Virus record (IMG/VR): IMGVR_UViG_3300017613_002246
Span: 1-40,546 of that record
Length of the DNA: 40,546 bases
Source of the DNA: a virus
Direction: 5' to 3' (one strand)
The notes under the pieces are model-generated. The model saw only the letters and a list, made by a program, of their open reading frames with translations, was not told the DNA's origin and did no database searches. The first letter of the stretch is position 1. Each line of letters starts with the position of its first letter. The translations under genes and the position numbers were made by a program. Positions 19,658 to 27,751 of this stretch are shown here, one piece after another.

Positions 19658-22345
19658 TTATCTCATCCCATATTTACTTGTATCCGTAGATAAAATATTG
19701 TTCTTGACAGCAAGGGCTATCTGGCTACCGAGATCCTCGATATCCGTATAGTTCCTTATCTCAGAAATATTGATGTTTATGGTAGCGTTCATGCGTCCTC
19801 CACCACCAACACCTCTAGGACTACCAGCAGGAACTATCTTTTCTCCCTTATGGACGATAGCTGGACCTGTACGAGGGACATAATGGGTTCCTCTTTGAAA
19901 TCCCCAACCCTCATACATCTTACGTCTTCTCCAATATGAAGGTGTCCGTGCTGTAGAAATAGTTCCTGCTCCACCAGAGGAACTTGTATATGTCATAGCA
20001 TTAATTTTATCTAAAAAATCCTGAACTTCCCCCATAATCTTTGACATGTCATAACCAGCAAGCTTAAATGCAGCTACGGCTCGTGGACTTAACATTATAC
20101 TTGTAATCAAATCCATTTTTGCCTGCACTATCTTACCTATATTATTCATGGTGATGTCCCACCATTCTTCACGTGTATTTAAAGCTATTTTTTCATCATC
20201 AATAAACTGTTGTAAATCAAACAGTTGTTGGTCATATGTATATTTTAAACGAGATACTTCTTCTTGACGTTTAGCAAGTGTCTTATCGATTATATTCATT
20301 TCGTCTTCAGCAGCAATACGACTTTCCAAAGAAGAAATCCTTAACATCTTCATACGTTGCTGTTCATTACGGGTAAGACCACGCCTTCGTCTCATACCTC
20401 TAAGTTGAAGTTTCATTATTTCAAGACTATTTTCTTTCTGTAAATCATTATAGTCTCGCATATTTGTTATAGCTTCATGAAGTCTTTTGTTGTTTGTAGC
20501 CCAACCTTGATTGACACCTTCTAACCCATATTTTATGTCATATTGGACACCAGCAAGATCTTTTTCAGCTTCAAGAGTCTTTAATTTAAAACCAAGAGTT
20601 CCTGCGTAATCTGCTCCGAATGCTTCTTCTATTGTCTTTCCTTGAAAACCGAATTGAATAGGTTTTTCAAGTTCATCTTTCAACCGTTTAAAATCACGTT
20701 GTAATAATAATAAATCATCTTCAAGTTTAGCCAGCTCATTATCATATTCAGATACAGCACCAGTGATTGCTTCAAAATGAGGACGTAAAGCTACCTGTGT
20801 TTCTTCCAATGTTGCAGTTTCTGTATTCAACTCGTCTAAAGTAATATTTAAATCACTGACAGTTTTTGCCCATTCTTTCCATTCTTCACTCTGAAATTCT
20901 GTGGCACTTCTACCAACAAGATTTAAACCGTATATATCTTTATACTCTGGTTCCATGGCTAGTAATGCTTTGCGTTCTTCTGTCTTCTTCCAGAGGTCTT
21001 CACCTATCTCACCTGCTCTTATAGAATTATTGATGTATTCTGTTACTTTAGCTATGTCTGCATTGTCAACTGTTATCGTCTGAAATGCAGCAGAAGCACC
21101 ACCCTCTATCAATCTAAGATGTTCTTCAAGTTTGGATAATGCAGCATCAGCATCACCACCAGATAGAAGAGTACCCCACCAGACTTGAGATTTTTTCCAC
21201 CAGATATCAAACTCGTTCCATGTCTCACCTATCTGTCTCTCAAGATATTCCATCTGCTGTGTGAGCACATTCATAGCGAACTGTGCTGTATTCATCATCT
21301 TTTCCATAGCAGTGTTGGTTGCACCTACAGCACCTTCAACAAGCTGTAAGTCAGTAGCAAAACCTTCAAGTCCTTCGTCACCTGCAAGAACCATAGCGAC
21401 ACGAAGGCTACGCATGTTTTGGATAAGATCAGGAATTATTGTTTTTCCAAACTCTTTTGTTTTTGCATTAAGTTCTGCGAACCATCCCTGCAACCCTAAT
21501 ACACGCAAAGCAAGAGCATTCATCTCAATGCCGTATTCACGAGCAGATTCTTTAGCACTCTCTGTTGGGTTAACTATATTCTGGATGACAAGAGCAAGAC
21601 CACGAGACGTCATATCAAGACGCAAACCATGACGAGTAGCTGTTGATAACGCAGCCATAAGTTCTTCAAATTTAATTCCTGCTTGTGCAGCAATAGGAAC
21701 TACATATTGCAGTGCAGAAGCAAGCTCTTGAAATTGGAATTTACCACGAATAACTGACTGAAAAAGAATATCCGATATACGGGATGCCTCACCAGCAGCC
21801 ATACCATAAGAGTTAAGAATTGTCGTAAGGATATCTACAGATTCCCTGACAGTAGAAAGACCAGCTATAGACGCTTTAACAGCATTGTTTAAAAGACCGA
21901 TAGCATCTTCGGCATTGAAAGCAGCAGAAAGGATATCATAAAGACCTTTAGCCATGTCAGATGTTGCTTGTCCGAAACGGATAGCAAGTTGTTCCACTCC
22001 TGCTGTAAGAGAAGGAAGCAAATGCATACCAACATCAGAAAGAATTGTGGATACCTCAGCCATCCTTACTTGAAACTCACGGAACTTGACTGATGTACCT
22101 TTTATCCATGCTGATAACTTTGAAAAAGCTGTATAAGCACCAGTCGCAGCGACAGCCATTCCAACAAGACGACCACTAAGAGCATGTGTCCGTTTACCGA
22201 CAGTACCTATTTGTTTTGCTGCTTGAGCAGCACCAGGAGCACCAACACCAATACTTACCATATTACTAGCAGAAAATGAACTACCACCAGCACTCATACT
22301 ACCAGGACGTCCTCCTCTTATTCCTGATGTACTAAATCCAGGCAT
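19658..22345 (-). CDS. tail tape-measure protein
   Basis: Residues 100-330 match the TP901-type tape-measure core: GLYDILSAAFN, LTTILNSYGM, ASRISDILFQSV, FQELASALQYVVPIAAQAGI, ELMAALSTATRHGLR and a later MRSLRVAMVLAGDEG. A long coiled middle (TATLEETQVAL to RSLEEQ-like stretches) and a C-terminal HKGEKIVPAGSPRG, typical of tape measures, follow. At 895 aa and about 1.5 angstrom per residue a tail of roughly 130 nm would be expected. Its start overlaps the stop of the tail assembly frame. Confidence 0.9.
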   Translation of the reverse strand: MPGFSTSGIRGGRPGSMSAGGSSFSASNMVSIGVGAPGAAQAAKQIGTVGKRTHALSGRLVGMAVAATGAYTAFSKLSAWIKGTSVKFREFQVRMAEVSTILSDVGMHLLPSLTAGVEQLAIRFGQATSDMAKGLYDILSAAFNAEDAIGLLNNAVKASIAGLSTVRESVDILTTILNSYGMAAGEASRISDILFQSVIRGKFQFQELASALQYVVPIAAQAGIKFEELMAALSTATRHGLRLDMTSRGLALVIQNIVNPTESAKESAREYGIEMNALALRVLGLQGWFAELNAKTKEFGKTIIPDLIQNMRSLRVAMVLAGDEGLEGFATDLQLVEGAVGATNTAMEKMMNTAQFAMNVLTQQMEYLERQIGETWNEFDIWWKKSQVWWGTLLSGGDADAALSKLEEHLRLIEGGASAAFQTITVDNADIAKVTEYINNSIRAGEIGEDLWKKTEERKALLAMEPEYKDIYGLNLVGRSATEFQSEEWKEWAKTVSDLNITLDELNTETATLEETQVALRPHFEAITGAVSEYDNELAKLEDDLLLLQRDFKRLKDELEKPIQFGFQGKTIEEAFGADYAGTLGFKLKTLEAEKDLAGVQYDIKYGLEGVNQGWATNNKRLHEAITNMRDYNDLQKENSLEIMKLQLRGMRRRRGLTRNEQQRMKMLRISSLESRIAAEDEMNIIDKTLAKRQEEVSRLKYTYDQQLFDLQQFIDDEKIALNTREEWWDITMNNIGKIVQAKMDLITSIMLSPRAVAAFKLAGYDMSKIMGEVQDFLDKINAMTYTSSSGGAGTISTARTPSYWRRRKMYEGWGFQRGTHYVPRTGPAIVHKGEKIVPAGSPRGVGGGGRMNATININISEIRNYTDIEDLGSQIALAVKNNILSTDTSKYGMR

Positions 22346-22602
22346 TATAATTCTCCTTTAGCTCTTTTAATCATATCTTTCTGACTCTCTTTTAATTGTT
22401 TATGTGGTGTCTTCTTATTTTGTATGGTTGCAAACTCTGATATATCATAGAAATCCCAAGGACTCATATTCAGAATATCTTCTATATTACCCACTTTAAG
22501 GAACAGGCTGTAGATAGCCTCATTAAAATTTTCAAGATGTTCTTCGGGATAAATTGTTTTACTTCGTACGAAAGGATGTACCACCCTTTCCCACTCGCCC
22601 AC
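22345..22602 (-). CDS. downstream frame of the tail assembly chaperone pair
   Basis: The frame overlaps the upstream one by 44 bases and ends exactly at the tape-measure start. GTG 22602 has no ribosome-binding site, and the frame is open further upstream to about 22625, so it is probably made as a fusion by ribosomal frameshift. The part ESQKDMIKRAKGEL and WDFYDISEFA are helical, like GT-type extensions. The shift needed is +1 or -2. Confidence 0.6.
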   Translation of the reverse strand: MGEWERVVHPFVRSKTIYPEEHLENFNEAIYSLFLKVGNIEDILNMSPWDFYDISEFATIQNKKTPHKQLKESQKDMIKRAKGEL

Positions 22603-22834
22603 TGTTCCACAACTTAGAAAAGAAATCTATGTAATCATCTGGATGCATAGTCTCTATATGTTCAAGAGTGACAGAACTATCAAGTGTTTGAAGAGAAAGA
22701 AGAACAATCTTCTCATTGAAGAGTTGACTGTATTCCTCTTCAGGCATCTTTTTATGCTCTGCCATTTGTTTCATTGCTTCCCTATGCAACCGTAAAGTCA
22801 TACGGGGGATTTCAAATTCTTTTCCTTTGTTCAC
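22559..22834 (-). CDS. tail assembly chaperone, upstream frame (gpG-like position)
   Basis: A 91-residue, mostly helical acidic protein between the tail tube and tape-measure genes, the fixed place of gpG-type chaperones. It begins MNKGKEFEIPRMTLRLH and ends GTSFRTK. No sequence motif defines these proteins; position, size and the overlapping second frame give the call. Confidence 0.65.
   Translation of the reverse strand: MNKGKEFEIPRMTLRLHREAMKQMAEHKKMPEEEYSQLFNEKIVLLSLQTLDSSVTLEHIETMHPDDYIDFFSKLWNSGRVGKGGTSFRTK
22586..22592 (-). other. GGGAAAG heptamer in the overlap of the two chaperone frames
   Basis: On the - strand the upstream frame reads GTG GGA AAG GGT, so the heptamer is in the G-GGA-AAG phase of a slippery site, the same heptamer used for -1 slipping in lambda G/T. 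Here, though, a -1 shift opens only about 33 codons before a stop, while the long second frame needs +1 or -2. It may be the site of a -2 slip, or a coincidence. Confidence 0.35.
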
Positions 22835-22875
22835 GAATGGTAGTTTGTATTTCGTTATCTATTTCACAACCTCTC

Positions 22876-22882
22876 AAAAAAA
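22876..22882 (-). terminator. oligo-T stretch after the tail tube gene
   Basis: A run of seven T on the - strand starts about ten bases past the stop of the tail tube gene, with no GC stem before it. In an archaeal-type system it would stop part of the transcripts and give more tail tube than the genes downstream. Confidence 0.4.
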
Positions 22883-22892
22883 CTTATGAGCC

Positions 22893-23819
22893 TTATGGTG
22901 CTTCAGTACAGGTAATCTGTTTAGCAGTCCAAGGACAACTCTCCATCATCCCCTCATTAGCCTCCGATACATCAATGCTTGAACTATCCCAACGCAAGTC
23001 GGTCAAAGTAAGCATCGGAGCACTACTACCTAGATGACCAAGATACACCCTCAGTCCGGTATTTGCTGAATCAATCACGTCTCCAAAGTGGAATGCACCA
23101 CCTTCATCAAGACTGATGTCACAGCTACCTGTAATATCCCTAGCACACGCTATTGCAGCCTGTTTATCACGATCACCAACTGTCCATACATCCTGTATGT
23201 TATGATTCACAGTACAATCAAAACTGCTTGTAACATACGCAAGATCATTACCACTACTATTAGTGACTTTACTTGCTACGTTAAACATACATAGATGATC
23301 GCTTTTATCATAAGATGCTGTACTGTATAATGATGTAGTTGTTGATGTAACTATACTTTGTACTGAAAAATCAGCACTGATAGTCCAAGGTTCATCATAA
23401 CTGCCGCTTATCGTCACTGTTTTACATTTACATCCTGTCATAAGGTAACATGAGTTTGTACCCTCTGAGTTTGCGACAACCTCTATGCTCATGCTTCGTA
23501 CTGTTCCACCACTACGGTCCACAAGAAAATCACATAATGTATCGTCATGATGCGGACTGTATTCCAGATGGAATGTGTAATCTACAGCTTTCTGTGTAGC
23601 GACAGATATATCTATACTGTCTATCCCTCGGTAGTAAGCATTTACGTCACCTGATTCAATCCGTGCTACTTTCACAACAGATGAAACAGACTGAGTAACT
23701 ACACTAGCTATGTATGGAACGCTTTGTGCACTGAGTGTTCCGTATGTCTGTTCAGCTTTCCAGACTATACTACCTTGGTATGGTCTTCCAATATCTGACC
23801 ATCCCTTTTTGAATTGCAT
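22893..23819 (-). CDS. major tail tube protein
   Basis: A 308-residue beta-rich protein with many Ser/Thr, located three genes before the tape measure. The N-terminus GWSDIGRPYQGSIVWKAEQTYGT and repeated strand pairs (TVTISGSYDEPWTISADF, MLTLTDLRWDSSSIDV) fit tail tube or phage-tail-1-like folds. A good GGAGGAAAAAAATAATG start and the oligo-T stretch after the gene suit a highly expressed structural gene. Confidence 0.7.
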   Translation of the reverse strand: MQFKKGWSDIGRPYQGSIVWKAEQTYGTLSAQSVPYIASVVTQSVSSVVKVARIESGDVNAYYRGIDSIDISVATQKAVDYTFHLEYSPHHDDTLCDFLVDRSGGTVRSMSIEVVANSEGTNSCYLMTGCKCKTVTISGSYDEPWTISADFSVQSIVTSTTTSLYSTASYDKSDHLCMFNVASKVTNSSGNDLAYVTSSFDCTVNHNIQDVWTVGDRDKQAAIACARDITGSCDISLDEGGAFHFGDVIDSANTGLRVYLGHLGSSAPMLTLTDLRWDSSSIDVSEANEGMMESCPWTAKQITCTEAP

Positions 23820-23848: not shown

Positions 23849-24331
23849 TTATTTTTGATAATTCAGGGCAAAAACTTCTACTACCCTATGAAAGACAACC
23901 GAACCAGAATAATCCTCGATTATCTCTCTTGAACTGTTAAGAACATCCACCCAATAAGTAGATGTTACAGATGTTTTATATGTATCAAGTAATTGGACTA
24001 TTTTATCAGCTACATCCCGTCCAAAGGAAGTAGCACTTAAATTATCTGTAGCGACATAATAGATATTGAAATCCAGATAAGATTCATCCCGATTTGTATC
24101 TCCACTAAGATTCAAAGTATAAGACGGAGCATTGACAAGCGTCATCTCAATGAAAGGCATCTCAGGAAGTTCACCTGTTCGACATTCACCCGGTAGAAAC
24201 AATGGAACGTAAATCCATTCATCATTGCTGTCCTTAACCGAGACAGTTGAACAGTCGACGCCATCCACTTCCCAATCGAAACCAATGGTTGTCCGTAGAT
24301 GATGTCTTATATCGCCACTATATTTCGTCAT
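23849..24331 (-). CDS. tail completion/terminator-like protein (160 aa)
   Basis: ATG 24331 overlaps the upstream stop; the longer frame start inside the methyltransferase gene is less likely. The core VNAPSYTLNLSGDT, YYVATDNLSATSFGRDVADKI and RVVEVFALNYQK fits the small alpha/beta tail terminator proteins that precede the tail tube gene. Assignment is mainly by position. Confidence 0.5.
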   Translation of the reverse strand: MTKYSGDIRHHLRTTIGFDWEVDGVDCSTVSVKDSNDEWIYVPLFLPGECRTGELPEMPFIEMTLVNAPSYTLNLSGDTNRDESYLDFNIYYVATDNLSATSFGRDVADKIVQLLDTYKTSVTSTYWVDVLNSSREIIEDYSGSVVFHRVVEVFALNYQK

Positions 24332-25008
24332 TGTTTTTTTGCCTCTATAAATATACTCCACTCGTTCCTTGATACACCATCTCTTTCATCAACTCTGTCA
24401 AAATTAATAGAAGGATCAACCAACGCTGGAAATGCAGATTCTTCTCTTATAGTTTCATGAATATCAATATATCCTATTTTTTTCATTTTTGATTCTAATT
24501 GTTTATATGACAATTTTGTTAATATTCTATAACTAACATATTTGTTGATATCCCCGATTTCATCAGATGTCTTTTTATATCTCTCGGGTGCTTTATTAAA
24601 ATCAATAACAACTAACCTTATCAATGAATTTTTTTTCATACAACGATAACATTCTTCCAATAAATAATCAACTTTTTCTGGAAATAAATAGTAAAGTAAA
24701 TGAGAAATAAAAAACACTTTAACAGTATTGTCTGCAAATGGTAATATATATTCTTTATTGAGATTCATATGAAAAGTAATATTATTATGTGGTTCCAAAT
24801 CAATAGTTTCCCATCCAACTCCTAACCAATTTCCCGAACCAATATTAACAAATCTATTATTATAATCAATAGGAAACATTTGTTTCCATAAAGATGTAAA
24901 TAATAGATAGCTATATCTCTTTCCTTCTGCTTTTGCATATTTATCAATATCAACTGCTGAGTACATTTTTGTTTCTTCAACTACTAAAATATTATTCCCT
25001 TGTATCAT
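24328..25008 (-). CDS. SAM-dependent methyltransferase inserted in the tail module
   Basis: The SAM loop is FVNIGSGNWLG (53-63), followed by GWETIDLEPH, ILPFADNTVKVFFISH and LEECYRCMKKNSLIRLVVID. This is the same subgroup as the methyltransferase at 6067-6630 (NLGSG, GWKNLDF, FEHLEDE). The gene is richer in A and T than its neighbours, and the tail genes on both sides form a normal series without it, so it is probably a later insertion. Target unknown. Confidence 0.7.
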   Translation of the reverse strand: MIQGNNILVVEETKMYSAVDIDKYAKAEGKRYSYLLFTSLWKQMFPIDYNNRFVNIGSGNWLGVGWETIDLEPHNNITFHMNLNKEYILPFADNTVKVFFISHLLYYLFPEKVDYLLEECYRCMKKNSLIRLVVIDFNKAPERYKKTSDEIGDINKYVSYRILTKLSYKQLESKMKKIGYIDIHETIREESAFPALVDPSINFDRVDERDGVSRNEWSIFIEAKKQ

Positions 25009-25010
25009 AT

Positions 25011-25937
25011 TTATGGTCTCCCCATAGAAGCTATCGGCTTTCTAATCAAAGCCATCAACCGCTTATACTCGAAATAGAACCGCTTATCATCCTTAATAAG
25101 GATAGGTGAGTTCCTATTGATATCAGCTATCGTAATCCTATCCGGCTGTTTAAGACGCATCATGATATAATGAGCAGCCAAGTATGCAACAGCCTGCTGG
25201 AACAAGTCTTCATCATATGATTCATATTTACTATAGTAATCCAGATACAAACCCTCATAATTAGATGGGATAGCAGTTAACCCGTCTGTCTGATACAGTT
25301 CTATAGTACCGTTATCAGCATTCGTTATCGCAATATCACATTTAGAGAACGCACCACTTGAATTAATCCACCAGCCGTCAACATCAGTAGCACAACTTGT
25401 TACATTACCAGTAACAGAACCATCACCATTAATATCAGCGATAGGAAAACTTTTTGTCTGGAAATAGACATTACTTCCATCTACAAGAATGCCAGTGTTG
25501 ACATTAGGTTGTGGAGCTTCTTTATAATGATGAAGATAAACCTCCTTAAGAGCACGTTTGTAACTCATCCAGCAGATGTTCTCCAGATCATTATCAGATA
25601 TAGTCTTCTCGTCACCTATACCAGTAATCTGACGGACCTCCTTAGCGACATCCCAAGGCATAACAAAAAACTCATCCTTAAACGTAGCAACAGTAGCAGA
25701 ACTACTTTCACCAGCAGTCTTAACATCATACCTACCATACGTTGCAGTTGATGGTATATTATAATAATAATAATATTGACCAGTACCTGTCTTACCCATA
25801 GAAGCATTTGACACAACCTGTCTGCCACATGGATCTTTTATAGTTTCTAATATAACAGCAGGATCAACCTTAGTGTTATTTCTGTCTTTTATCGTGACAT
25901 GATGAGAATAACTCTCACCTCTTTGATAGATCGCCAT
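25011..25937 (-). CDS. head-tail connector-like structural protein with a Ca-loop motif (308 aa)
   Basis: Residues 1-95 form a beta domain (SYSHHVTIKDRNNTKVDP to FKDEFFVMPW). Then VRQITGIGDEKTISDNDLENICW starts a helical part as in phage head-tail connectors, interrupted by a beta insert that contains DINGDGSVTGN, an EF-hand or dockerin-like calcium loop. The C-terminal helix YLAAHYIMMRLK and FEYKRLMALIRK return to the connector pattern. Place between capsid genes and tail terminator agrees. Confidence 0.55.
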   Translation of the reverse strand: MAIYQRGESYSHHVTIKDRNNTKVDPAVILETIKDPCGRQVVSNASMGKTGTGQYYYYYNIPSTATYGRYDVKTAGESSSATVATFKDEFFVMPWDVAKEVRQITGIGDEKTISDNDLENICWMSYKRALKEVYLHHYKEAPQPNVNTGILVDGSNVYFQTKSFPIADINGDGSVTGNVTSCATDVDGWWINSSGAFSKCDIAITNADNGTIELYQTDGLTAIPSNYEGLYLDYYSKYESYDEDLFQQAVAYLAAHYIMMRLKQPDRITIADINRNSPILIKDDKRFYFEYKRLMALIRKPIASMGRP

Positions 25938-27751
25938 TAATATTTCCTCTTTTTAATCTTATATAATTGCTCTTTCGAGCCGTTAATCTTATATAACTGT
26001 TCCAATGTGGAATCAATCTTATATTTTTCTTCGTTGCTGCTAGTTATTCTCACTGGAAAATCAAGTTCAGCCAGCAGTCCAATGACACCAGCAGCATGTT
26101 CTTTTATCTTCAACAGTTCAGTAACTGTCTTCTGGAATGCAGCCGTCCTGTCTATTGACTCTTTTAAAGCCAGATAATCTGTTATGACTTTAGAAAAACT
26201 GTTGACACGACTATGATGCTCTCCAAACCCAAGAGGCTCGGTTACCGTCATAGCTTTACTGACTATACTACTATAATGTTCTCCTAACCCAAGATCTTCA
26301 GTTACCGTCATAAATCGTTGACGTATAGGTTGACCTTGCTCATCAAAGCTTAGTGGTTCGGTTACTGTTTTTGCGAATGTACCGACACGACCAGGATATT
26401 CCGCAAACGCAAGATAATCAGTGACACTTTTTACGAATGTACCCACTCTTCCTATAGCTTCATCAAAAGCCAGTTTCTCTGTATGTGTATGTGTAAATGC
26501 TGTACCACTGGGAACAACATATGTTGCATGTTCAGCTAGTTGAAGCAGTTCAGTTACGGTTCGTGCTATAGCAATTATATGACTATAGTGTTCTGCGAAC
26601 TGTACCTTATCTGTAACACCATGAGCAAACGCAGTTGCTCGTTGTGCCTGCTCATCAAAACTTAGTGGCTCAGTGTGTGTATGTGCGAAAGTGCCTACTC
26701 GACTATGATGCTCAGCAAGCTGAAGCACCTCAGTAACAGTTATCGCTTTGCTGATGATCTTTGAAAAATGTTCAGCGAACTGTAGATTCTCAGTGACAGC
26801 ATGTGCAAAAGCAGTTATTCGCTGGCATTGTTCATCAAAGCTTAGTGGCTCTGTATGTGTATGTGCAAATGCAGCAGTACGCTGTCCTTGCTCATCAAAG
26901 CTTAATGGCTCTGTGTGTGTATGTGCAAATGCAGCAGTACGCTGTCCTTGCTCATCAAACTGAAGTTTTTCAGTGAAAGTCTTAGTTCTATGACGTATCC
27001 TCTGTGCCTGCTCATCAAAACTTAATGGCTCTGTGTGTGTATGTGCGAATGCAGCAACTCTTTGACCTTGTTCGTCAAATTGGACTTTATCGGTATGTGT
27101 ATGAGCATATGCAGCAAGTCTCTGTCCTTGCTCGTCAAAACTTAGTGGCTCTGTGTGTGTATGTGCATAAGCAGCAAGTCTCTGTCCTTGCTCATCAAAG
27201 CTTAGTGGCTCTGTGTGTGTATGTGCAAATGCAGCAACTCTTTGACCTTGTTCGTCAAATTGGACTTTATCGGTATGTGTATGAGTAAAAGCAGTACCAC
27301 CAGCGACATCACCATAAACATCAAAAATCTTAAATGATACAAAGGCACCAAATATAAGAGTTCTAGAAGCATCTTCAGTATCTTCAATTTCTACTTTTAC
27401 ATATCTACCTTTACCAGCAGTATCTAAAGTTATCTCTCTATCGCCTGTCCAATCATTTGTATCCTGCCAAGTATTTATTGTTTCATGACATACATCCTCT
27501 ACAGGTGGTGGATTAGTGTCACTAATATAAATATTTACATCAGTAGGATCATCAAGGGATAAACTACGACCACGTACTCTAGTAATATCATATGTTTCCC
27601 CTAAATCAAGAATGAAAAAATGATCTTCATCTGCGGTGTGCATCCATAGTCCATTACCATCCAATGCATCCTCTATATCACTAACTGGACCATCATCACC
27701 ACAATCAGAAATTAATTCAGAACTTCCAATATCTAACCAAGCATCAGCCAT
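25937..27751 (-). CDS. 604-aa virion protein: F5/8-like domain plus twenty 20-aa repeats
   Basis: Residues 1-150 look like a discoidin (F5/8 type C) carbohydrate-binding domain: HFFILDLGETYDITRVRGR, VNIYISD, then GRYVKVEIED. Residues 157-560 are twenty tandem units of about 20 aa with the core T-E-x-L-x-F-x-E (for example HTHTEPLSFDEQGQR); unit 13 has four extra residues. The last 44 residues hold three YKI units. The repeats probably form an extended rod, and the protein may be a head or neck fibre that binds sugars. One copy of the motif also occurs in the tail protein at 17156-17674. Confidence 0.7.
   Translation of the reverse strand: MADAWLDIGSSELISDCGDDGPVSDIEDALDGNGLWMHTADEDHFFILDLGETYDITRVRGRSLSLDDPTDVNIYISDTNPPPVEDVCHETINTWQDTNDWTGDREITLDTAGKGRYVKVEIEDTEDASRTLIFGAFVSFKIFDVYGDVAGGTAFTHTHTDKVQFDEQGQRVAAFAHTHTEPLSFDEQGQRLAAYAHTHTEPLSFDEQGQRLAAYAHTHTDKVQFDEQGQRVAAFAHTHTEPLSFDEQAQRIRHRTKTFTEKLQFDEQGQRTAAFAHTHTEPLSFDEQGQRTAAFAHTHTEPLSFDEQCQRITAFAHAVTENLQFAEHFSKIISKAITVTEVLQLAEHHSRVGTFAHTHTEPLSFDEQAQRATAFAHGVTDKVQFAEHYSHIIAIARTVTELLQLAEHATYVVPSGTAFTHTHTEKLAFDEAIGRVGTFVKSVTDYLAFAEYPGRVGTFAKTVTEPLSFDEQGQPIRQRFMTVTEDLGLGEHYSSIVSKAMTVTEPLGFGEHHSRVNSFSKVITDYLALKESIDRTAAFQKTVTELLKIKEHAAGVIGLLAELDFPVRITSSNEEKYKIDSTLEQLYKINGSKEQLYKIKKRKY
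26072..27283 (-). repeat. 60-bp tandem repeat array, twenty units
   Basis: The units encode the 20-aa motif. Those nearest the N-terminus (units 1-8, about 26800-27283) are almost identical at DNA level, sharing stretches such as CTCATCAAAGCTTAGTGGCT on the + strand, while the later ones have drifted. This gradient suggests recent unequal duplication at the N-terminal side of the array. Confidence 0.9.

Follow-up and report, generated by a model that had tools for sequence, protein, structure and literature searches.

The window, that is the whole stretch of DNA analysed here (40,546 nucleotides, a 40.5-kb virus record), carries its structural genes on the minus strand. Two short overlapping ORFs, called tacN and tacC below, lie between a tail protein gene and the tape-measure gene, and the same gene order is observed in relatives. 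The features of the locus are the following:

19658..22345, minus strand: tape-measure gene, downstream of the pair, with matches to PHROG tail length tape measure proteins (best E 7e-35).
22345..22626, minus strand: tacC, the second frame, placed by its coordinates, a match to the tacC HMM and alignment with relatives.
22559..22858, minus strand: tacN, the first ORF, chaperone-like, placed by its frame and by homology to the relative L106.
22568..22576, minus strand: proposed slip site UCC_UUU_CGU; UUU_C is in frame in 51/52 pairs and UUU_CG in 3/3 members with a +1 tacC frame.
22570..22590, minus strand: 9-bp stem predicted by folding, GAAAGGGUG-GUA-CAUCCUUUC, with the slip site as its 3' arm.
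22586..22592, minus strand: heptamer G_GGA_AAG, in phase and not conserved (2/52 members).
22893..23819, minus strand: tail protein gene, upstream of the pair, matching PHROG 290 (annotated minor tail protein, E 1e-12) and with relatives in the family contigs.

The tail protein gene at 22893..23819 is taken as the major tail protein gene from its position. Also among the tail genes, an ORF at 24328-25008 (minus strand) resembles by eye a SAM-dependent methyltransferase. A 604-aa ORF at 25937-27751 (minus strand) is made up of many repeats, each about 20 residues long and resembling AFAHTHTEPLSFDEQGQR. No tRNA genes were found in the window and an Rfam scan of positions 22300-22900 gave no match.

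The first-pass annotation had listed the first ORF at 22834-22559 (minus strand), from GTG 22834 to the TAA stop at 22561-22559. The tacN frame is open upstream of this GTG and homology with L106 extends eight codons further, up to 22858, where ATA ACG AAA TAC of the window aligns with ATG ACA AAA TAT of L106; this alignment places the tacN start very probably upstream of GTG 22834, and the homologous start would probably be the ATA at 22858-22856. Neither the window nor the relative L108 has an ATG, GTG or TTG close to where the tacN homology begins. Both have ATA at that place (22856-22858, minus strand, in the window), in L108 a few bases past AGGAG and just before the tacN core, and this ATA may represent a rare start codon or a sequence error.

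The tacC ORF runs from its first GTG at 22602 to 22345 (minus strand), with a further in-frame GTG at 22584, and its frame is open from 22626. The two frames overlap by 44 nt counted from GTG 22602, as had been annotated, and by 68 nt counted from the frame opening at 22626. The tacN and tacC starts are offset by 232 nt, which equals 1 mod 3, so that the tacC frame is +1 (or -2) relative to tacN. This frame geometry is directly established by the coordinates and upholds the first-pass annotation, which had also correctly noted GGGAAAG in phase in the overlap (22592-22586). Read by eye, the DNA before GTG 22602 has no clear ribosome-binding site.

Relatives were collected through terminase and portal searches, then through the tape measure and then through tail-protein alignments, and the pairs were located with HMMs of both ORFs. 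The initial scans with the tape measure and with the terminase each gave at least 80 matches. In the first set 83 loci were examined, of which 39 had both ORFs and 36 remained after identical loci (L111, L112 and L139) were removed before counting; L118 had too little sequence. From the second set 25 of 61 loci, those on contigs new to the sample, were examined and 10 had both ORFs, while 9 of the 49 loci of the third set were examined and 6 had both. L262 of the third set shares its contig with L211, whose second-set locus had too little sequence. In total this gives 52 distinct pairs including that of the window, nearly all on metagenomic virus contigs; they are not independent since some of the members with a -1 tacC frame are closely related. 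A scan of genome contigs returned one relative, L188 (contig JAGMCL010000020.1). This contig lies in the bin of a MAG assigned to candidate division WOR-3, and a host and a binning error are indistinguishable here.

Several searches gave little. The tape-measure query used on its own against the viral contig collection returned zero relatives, a DNA pattern for tacC matched the G003 contig only, and on G017 (L107) a distant tape measure was found with no tacN-tacC-like pair seen. Among named phages tacC and the tail protein had no match and tacN nothing better than E 0.3; the tape-measure and terminase matches were distant, with a best identity of 35% and all below 60%.

The two ORFs are named chaperones from their gene position and architecture. 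PHROG scans of 31 tacN and 31 tacC members revealed no common family: the matches were scattered, each being limited to one or two members. With Pfam, the tacN members showed one weak match in 1/31 and again no common family. Predicted models were obtained with a mean pLDDT of 93.5 for tacN and of 86.2 for tacC (pTM 0.55). In structure searches of tacN against BFVD and PDB and of tacC against BFVD no match reached E 0.001. Several of the weak BFVD matches of tacN, which all have E > 0.1, carry the name tail assembly chaperone (E 0.28 to 4.0); tacN against PDB and tacC against BFVD gave nothing useful. A chaperone function is thus not established by the PHROG, Pfam and structure searches.

Across the 52 pairs, the tacC frame is -1 relative to tacN in 49 and +1 in three, namely the window, L137 (contig G003) and L134 (contig G014). 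The overlap, whose loss in relatives had been regarded at first pass as a sign against a frameshift, is lost in 0/52 pairs. Within it an in-frame UUU_C is found in 51/52 pairs (22573-22570 in the window). Indeed, TTT C occurs in the tacN frame in 36/36 pairs of the first set, compared to 1.2 expected from codon shuffles, in 9/10 of the second and in 6/6 of the third. The sole pair lacking it, L215, reads TCT TTT TTA, which fits the form U_UUU_UUA, its slip site having been placed by hand. This conservation of UUU_C is directly established, and so is the link between the frame and the base before UUU: this base is U in 49/49 of the -1 pairs (the hand-set site of L215 included) and A, A and C in the three +1 pairs. 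Furthermore, all three +1 members, with tacC in the +1 frame, have in common UUU_CGN in the overlap, the codon after UUU, in the A site, being CGT, CGA and CGA. In L137 the overlap is just 26 nt (AGG AAG TCT GAT ACG AAA TTT CGA TGA), and TTT CGA is a plausible +1 site there.

We therefore consider it probable, from the frames and the conserved codon, that the pair codes for a tail assembly chaperone and for a version of it extended by frameshifting, the latter being made by a +1 slip of tRNA-Phe from UUU onto UUC. That slippage takes place, that it goes +1 and not -2, how often it occurs and that the proteins act as chaperones are what we infer from the observations presented here. The following points, detailed below, weigh against this reading: the +1 members number three and fall in one clade of the chaperone tree, their A-site codon is not rare, neither an internal Shine-Dalgarno sequence nor a downstream stem accounts for enough shifting, and the window and L134 have start codons in the tacC frame ahead of its core.

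A -2 slip like that of Mu, either at G_GGA_AAG, as proposed at first pass, or at another point of the overlap, could also lead into the tacC frame. The frame relation permits it, the window has the heptamer in phase and phage Mu uses -2 according to part of a published survey (PMC5009743). However, across the aligned pairs the heptamer is in phase in 2/52 only, the second carrier being L122, a -1 member, and it is absent from the other +1 members L137 and L134. No site permitting -2 re-pairing is common to the three +1 members, G_GGA_AAG occurring among them in the window only. Moreover, tRNA re-pairing after a -2 slip at GGGAAAG would be poor, and at UUU such a slip would land tRNA-Phe on CCU or AAU, whereas a +1 slip at the UUU_CGN shared by the three +1 members offers perfect re-pairing on UUC. 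Given these observations a -2 slip appears very unlikely, and the heptamer was rejected as the slip site.

The second possibility is that tacC is translated on its own, without fusion, from GTG 22602 or GTG 22584, where ribosomes would initiate or re-initiate. Start codons in the tacC frame ahead of its core are indeed present in the window, as both of these GTG codons, and in L134, which has ATG codons there too. Against this, 48/52 pairs, including the +1 member L137, have no ATG, GTG or TTG before the conserved part of tacC; the window, with its two GTG codons, is among the four exceptions. This lack of a start in most relatives is directly established and means that a frameshift is required in those 48. 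By eye, GTG 22602 has no clear Shine-Dalgarno sequence and GTG 22584 directly adjoins a purine run. Separate initiation seems most improbable. Of the first-pass proposal, the chaperone-like pair at the expected place, with its unusual +1/-2 frame and its dependence on a frameshift instead of a separate start, is hence retained, while the -2 slip at GGGAAAG is abandoned.

Trees were computed from the tape measure (35 rows), from the chaperones only (34 rows, L105 and L109 excluded) and from the tail protein (43 rows, the nine pairs without a usable tail protein excluded). In the tape-measure tree the +1 members fall in three places, which requires at least 3 changes, and their union in a single clade is rejected (AU p 4e-9 for the three +1 members together, 3e-7 for the window with L137). 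In the chaperone tree, on the other hand, they form one clade with 93/92 support (below the tool's star), and in the tail-protein tree one group with 100/98 support. Three independent switches to +1, as read from the tape-measure tree, were dropped given the single clade of the two other trees, which suggests that the direction changed about once. The conflict between the tape-measure tree and the two others means that a cassette has seemingly been exchanged against the tape measure, and suggests that the tail protein and the chaperones travel together as this cassette. Since the three +1 members form one clade, the association between the frame and the base before UUU represents one independent contrast.

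In the tail-protein tree five -1 pairs (L108, L116, L131, L133 and L136) form another group with 100/98 support, and these five together with the three +1 pairs are split from the other 35 rows with 100/99 support. The five display folding z values from -0.3 to 0.9, so that a downstream stem is not evident in them. In the simplest interpretation the change of direction occurred beside lineages without a downstream stem; any order of the -1 and +1 events that we infer is read from unrooted trees.

An assembly or sequencing error, namely a base lost from a true -1 pair, would turn -1 into +1 and 49/52 pairs are -1, but it is hardly credible here since the +1 frame is common to three divergent contigs grouped in two trees, all three of them without U before UUU and with TTT CG kept in the tacN frame, and since a base lost further downstream would not remove that U.

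The surroundings of the slip site were examined for stimulatory elements. Over a 33-nt stretch, 32/49 of the -1 pairs reach -6 kcal/mol or better while 17/49 do not, and in 24 of those 32 the first stem begins 5 or 6 nt past UUU. The downstream stems of the -1 pairs vary in sequence, with GGGTC/GACCC, GGGG/CCCC, GGGCG/CGCCC, GGAGG/CCTCC and GGCGG/CCGCC being observed. In the 40 nt after the codon following UUU the mean z is -1.84 over the 49 -1 pairs, 25 of which are below -2, compared to a mean of about 0 over the three +1 pairs with 0/3 below -2; hence no downstream stem stands out in the three +1 pairs. The stem GAAAGGGUG-GUA-CAUCCUUUC of the window has a z of -3.8 over 41 nt and of -1.0 over 110 nt, and pairs the purine run GAAAGGG with CAUCCUUUC, that is, with the slip site. 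A similar stem over the slip site is weaker in L134 (z -1.5) and none is found in L137 (z 0.9). We give no role to the 9-bp stem because its 3' arm is the slip site itself and it could hardly form with UUU in the P site. An internal Shine-Dalgarno stimulator was likewise rejected, p < 0.05 being observed in 0/3 of the +1 and 2/49 of the -1 members.

A rare A-site codon was ruled out for the +1 members by codon usage, which was counted with L105 excluded, and this speaks against simple stalling. Indeed, among the CGN codons of the window CGT is the most frequent (70%), and CGA, which is not rare, represents 9/21 of the CGN codons in L134 and 30/85 in L137. In the -1 members the Arg codons counted after UUU are CGC or CGG in 27/27 cases, codons that are scarce in the same contigs, and 0/20000 draws were as low when codons giving a stop in the -1 frame were excluded. 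Since the third base of the A-site codon also begins the next -1 codon, a protein constraint may underlie this preference; the CGC/CGG after UUU could reflect pausing or the need for a Gln or Glu codon in the -1 frame.

Returning to the +1 slip on UUU_C, the proposed course of events would be as follows. A ribosome, presumably that of a bacterial host, would translate tacN and arrive at UCC_UUU_CGU (UCC 22576-22574, UUU 22573-22571, CGU 22570-22568, minus strand); tRNA-Phe would then move forward from UUU onto UUC, and the next codon read would be GUA 22569-22567. When UUU occupies the P site and the next codon starts with C, forward re-pairing on UUC would be open to every UUU_C member, while backward re-pairing on UUU would be available only with a preceding U. 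The -1 relatives could slip back onto UUU because their preceding base is always U, and in many of them the same tRNA would be aided in doing so by the stem 5 or 6 nt downstream. In the +1 clade this U is missing, which would leave a backward slip mismatched and good pairing only forward, on UUC. According to the portions of two studies considered here, backward slip on 70S ribosomes in vitro required a structure downstream together with an identical base bridging the E and P sites, and +1 was favoured by a duplex upstream (PMC6321510), and among the -1 tetramers of E. coli U_UUC and U_UUU come next after A_AAG (PMC4066793). As far as those portions go, the scheme would agree both with the tetramer ranking and with the 70S results (PMC4066793, PMC6321510).

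The frameshift heptamer of phage lambda is GGGAAAG. Lambda shifts by -1, whereas the window has a +1 frame and UUU_C as the conserved element, and no sequence family joins the lambda proteins with tacN or tacC. The architecture is nevertheless that of lambda G/GT as described in part of the survey cited above, with two short overlapping genes just before the tape-measure gene and a second gene that is an extension of the first, here without a start of its own in most relatives (PMC5009743). Phage Mu has the same kind of gene and the same destination frame, as far as two partly consulted sources describe it (PMC5009743, PMC3498833), but here no -2 site is conserved and the common site favours +1.

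Sites of the same sequence have been described elsewhere. In the sections of the reports used here, UCC_UUU_CGU is the +1 site of influenza PA-X (PMC3498833) and UUU_CGN the +1 motif of plant amalgaviruses (PMC5052127). These share with the present pairs an in-frame UUU_CGN in the overlap, the nine bases of the window being identical to the PA-X site, but they are read by eukaryotic ribosomes, whereas this is a phage pair in which most relatives are -1. The -1 relatives resemble the bacterial -1 tetramers (U_UUC and U_UUU, known from IS elements) by their U_UUU and, in many, by a stem 5 or 6 nt downstream; the window, in contrast, has neither a U before UUU nor a downstream stem. A gene family that is mostly -1 with some +1 members is described in part of PMC5009743, the Rab-GDI displacement factor of Pezizomycotina, which is however fungal and nuclear.

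It is known, from the portions of PMC5009743 and PMC3498833 drawn upon, that tailed phages use -1, -2 or +1 for tail chaperones and that UUU_C serves as a +1 site. A phage chaperone family with one UUU_C site for both directions was not found in the open-access literature, which does not prove its absence. Within this limited search, a single chaperone family shifting either way at its conserved UUU_C looks new.

Taken as a whole, we lean towards the view that one tail-chaperone family uses a single slip codon, UUU_C, for both directions of frameshifting, that it is a natural counterpart of the bidirectional model studied in vitro, and that the switch passed through a stemless state. In this one gene family the direction goes with one base, a correlation that comprises about one independent change, and a downstream stem is lacking in the closest -1 relatives. 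Simple paired constructs would thus be possible for asking what sets forward against backward slip on the bacterial ribosome. The finding also raises the question of how the chaperone ratio of a phage is maintained as the shift changes sign.
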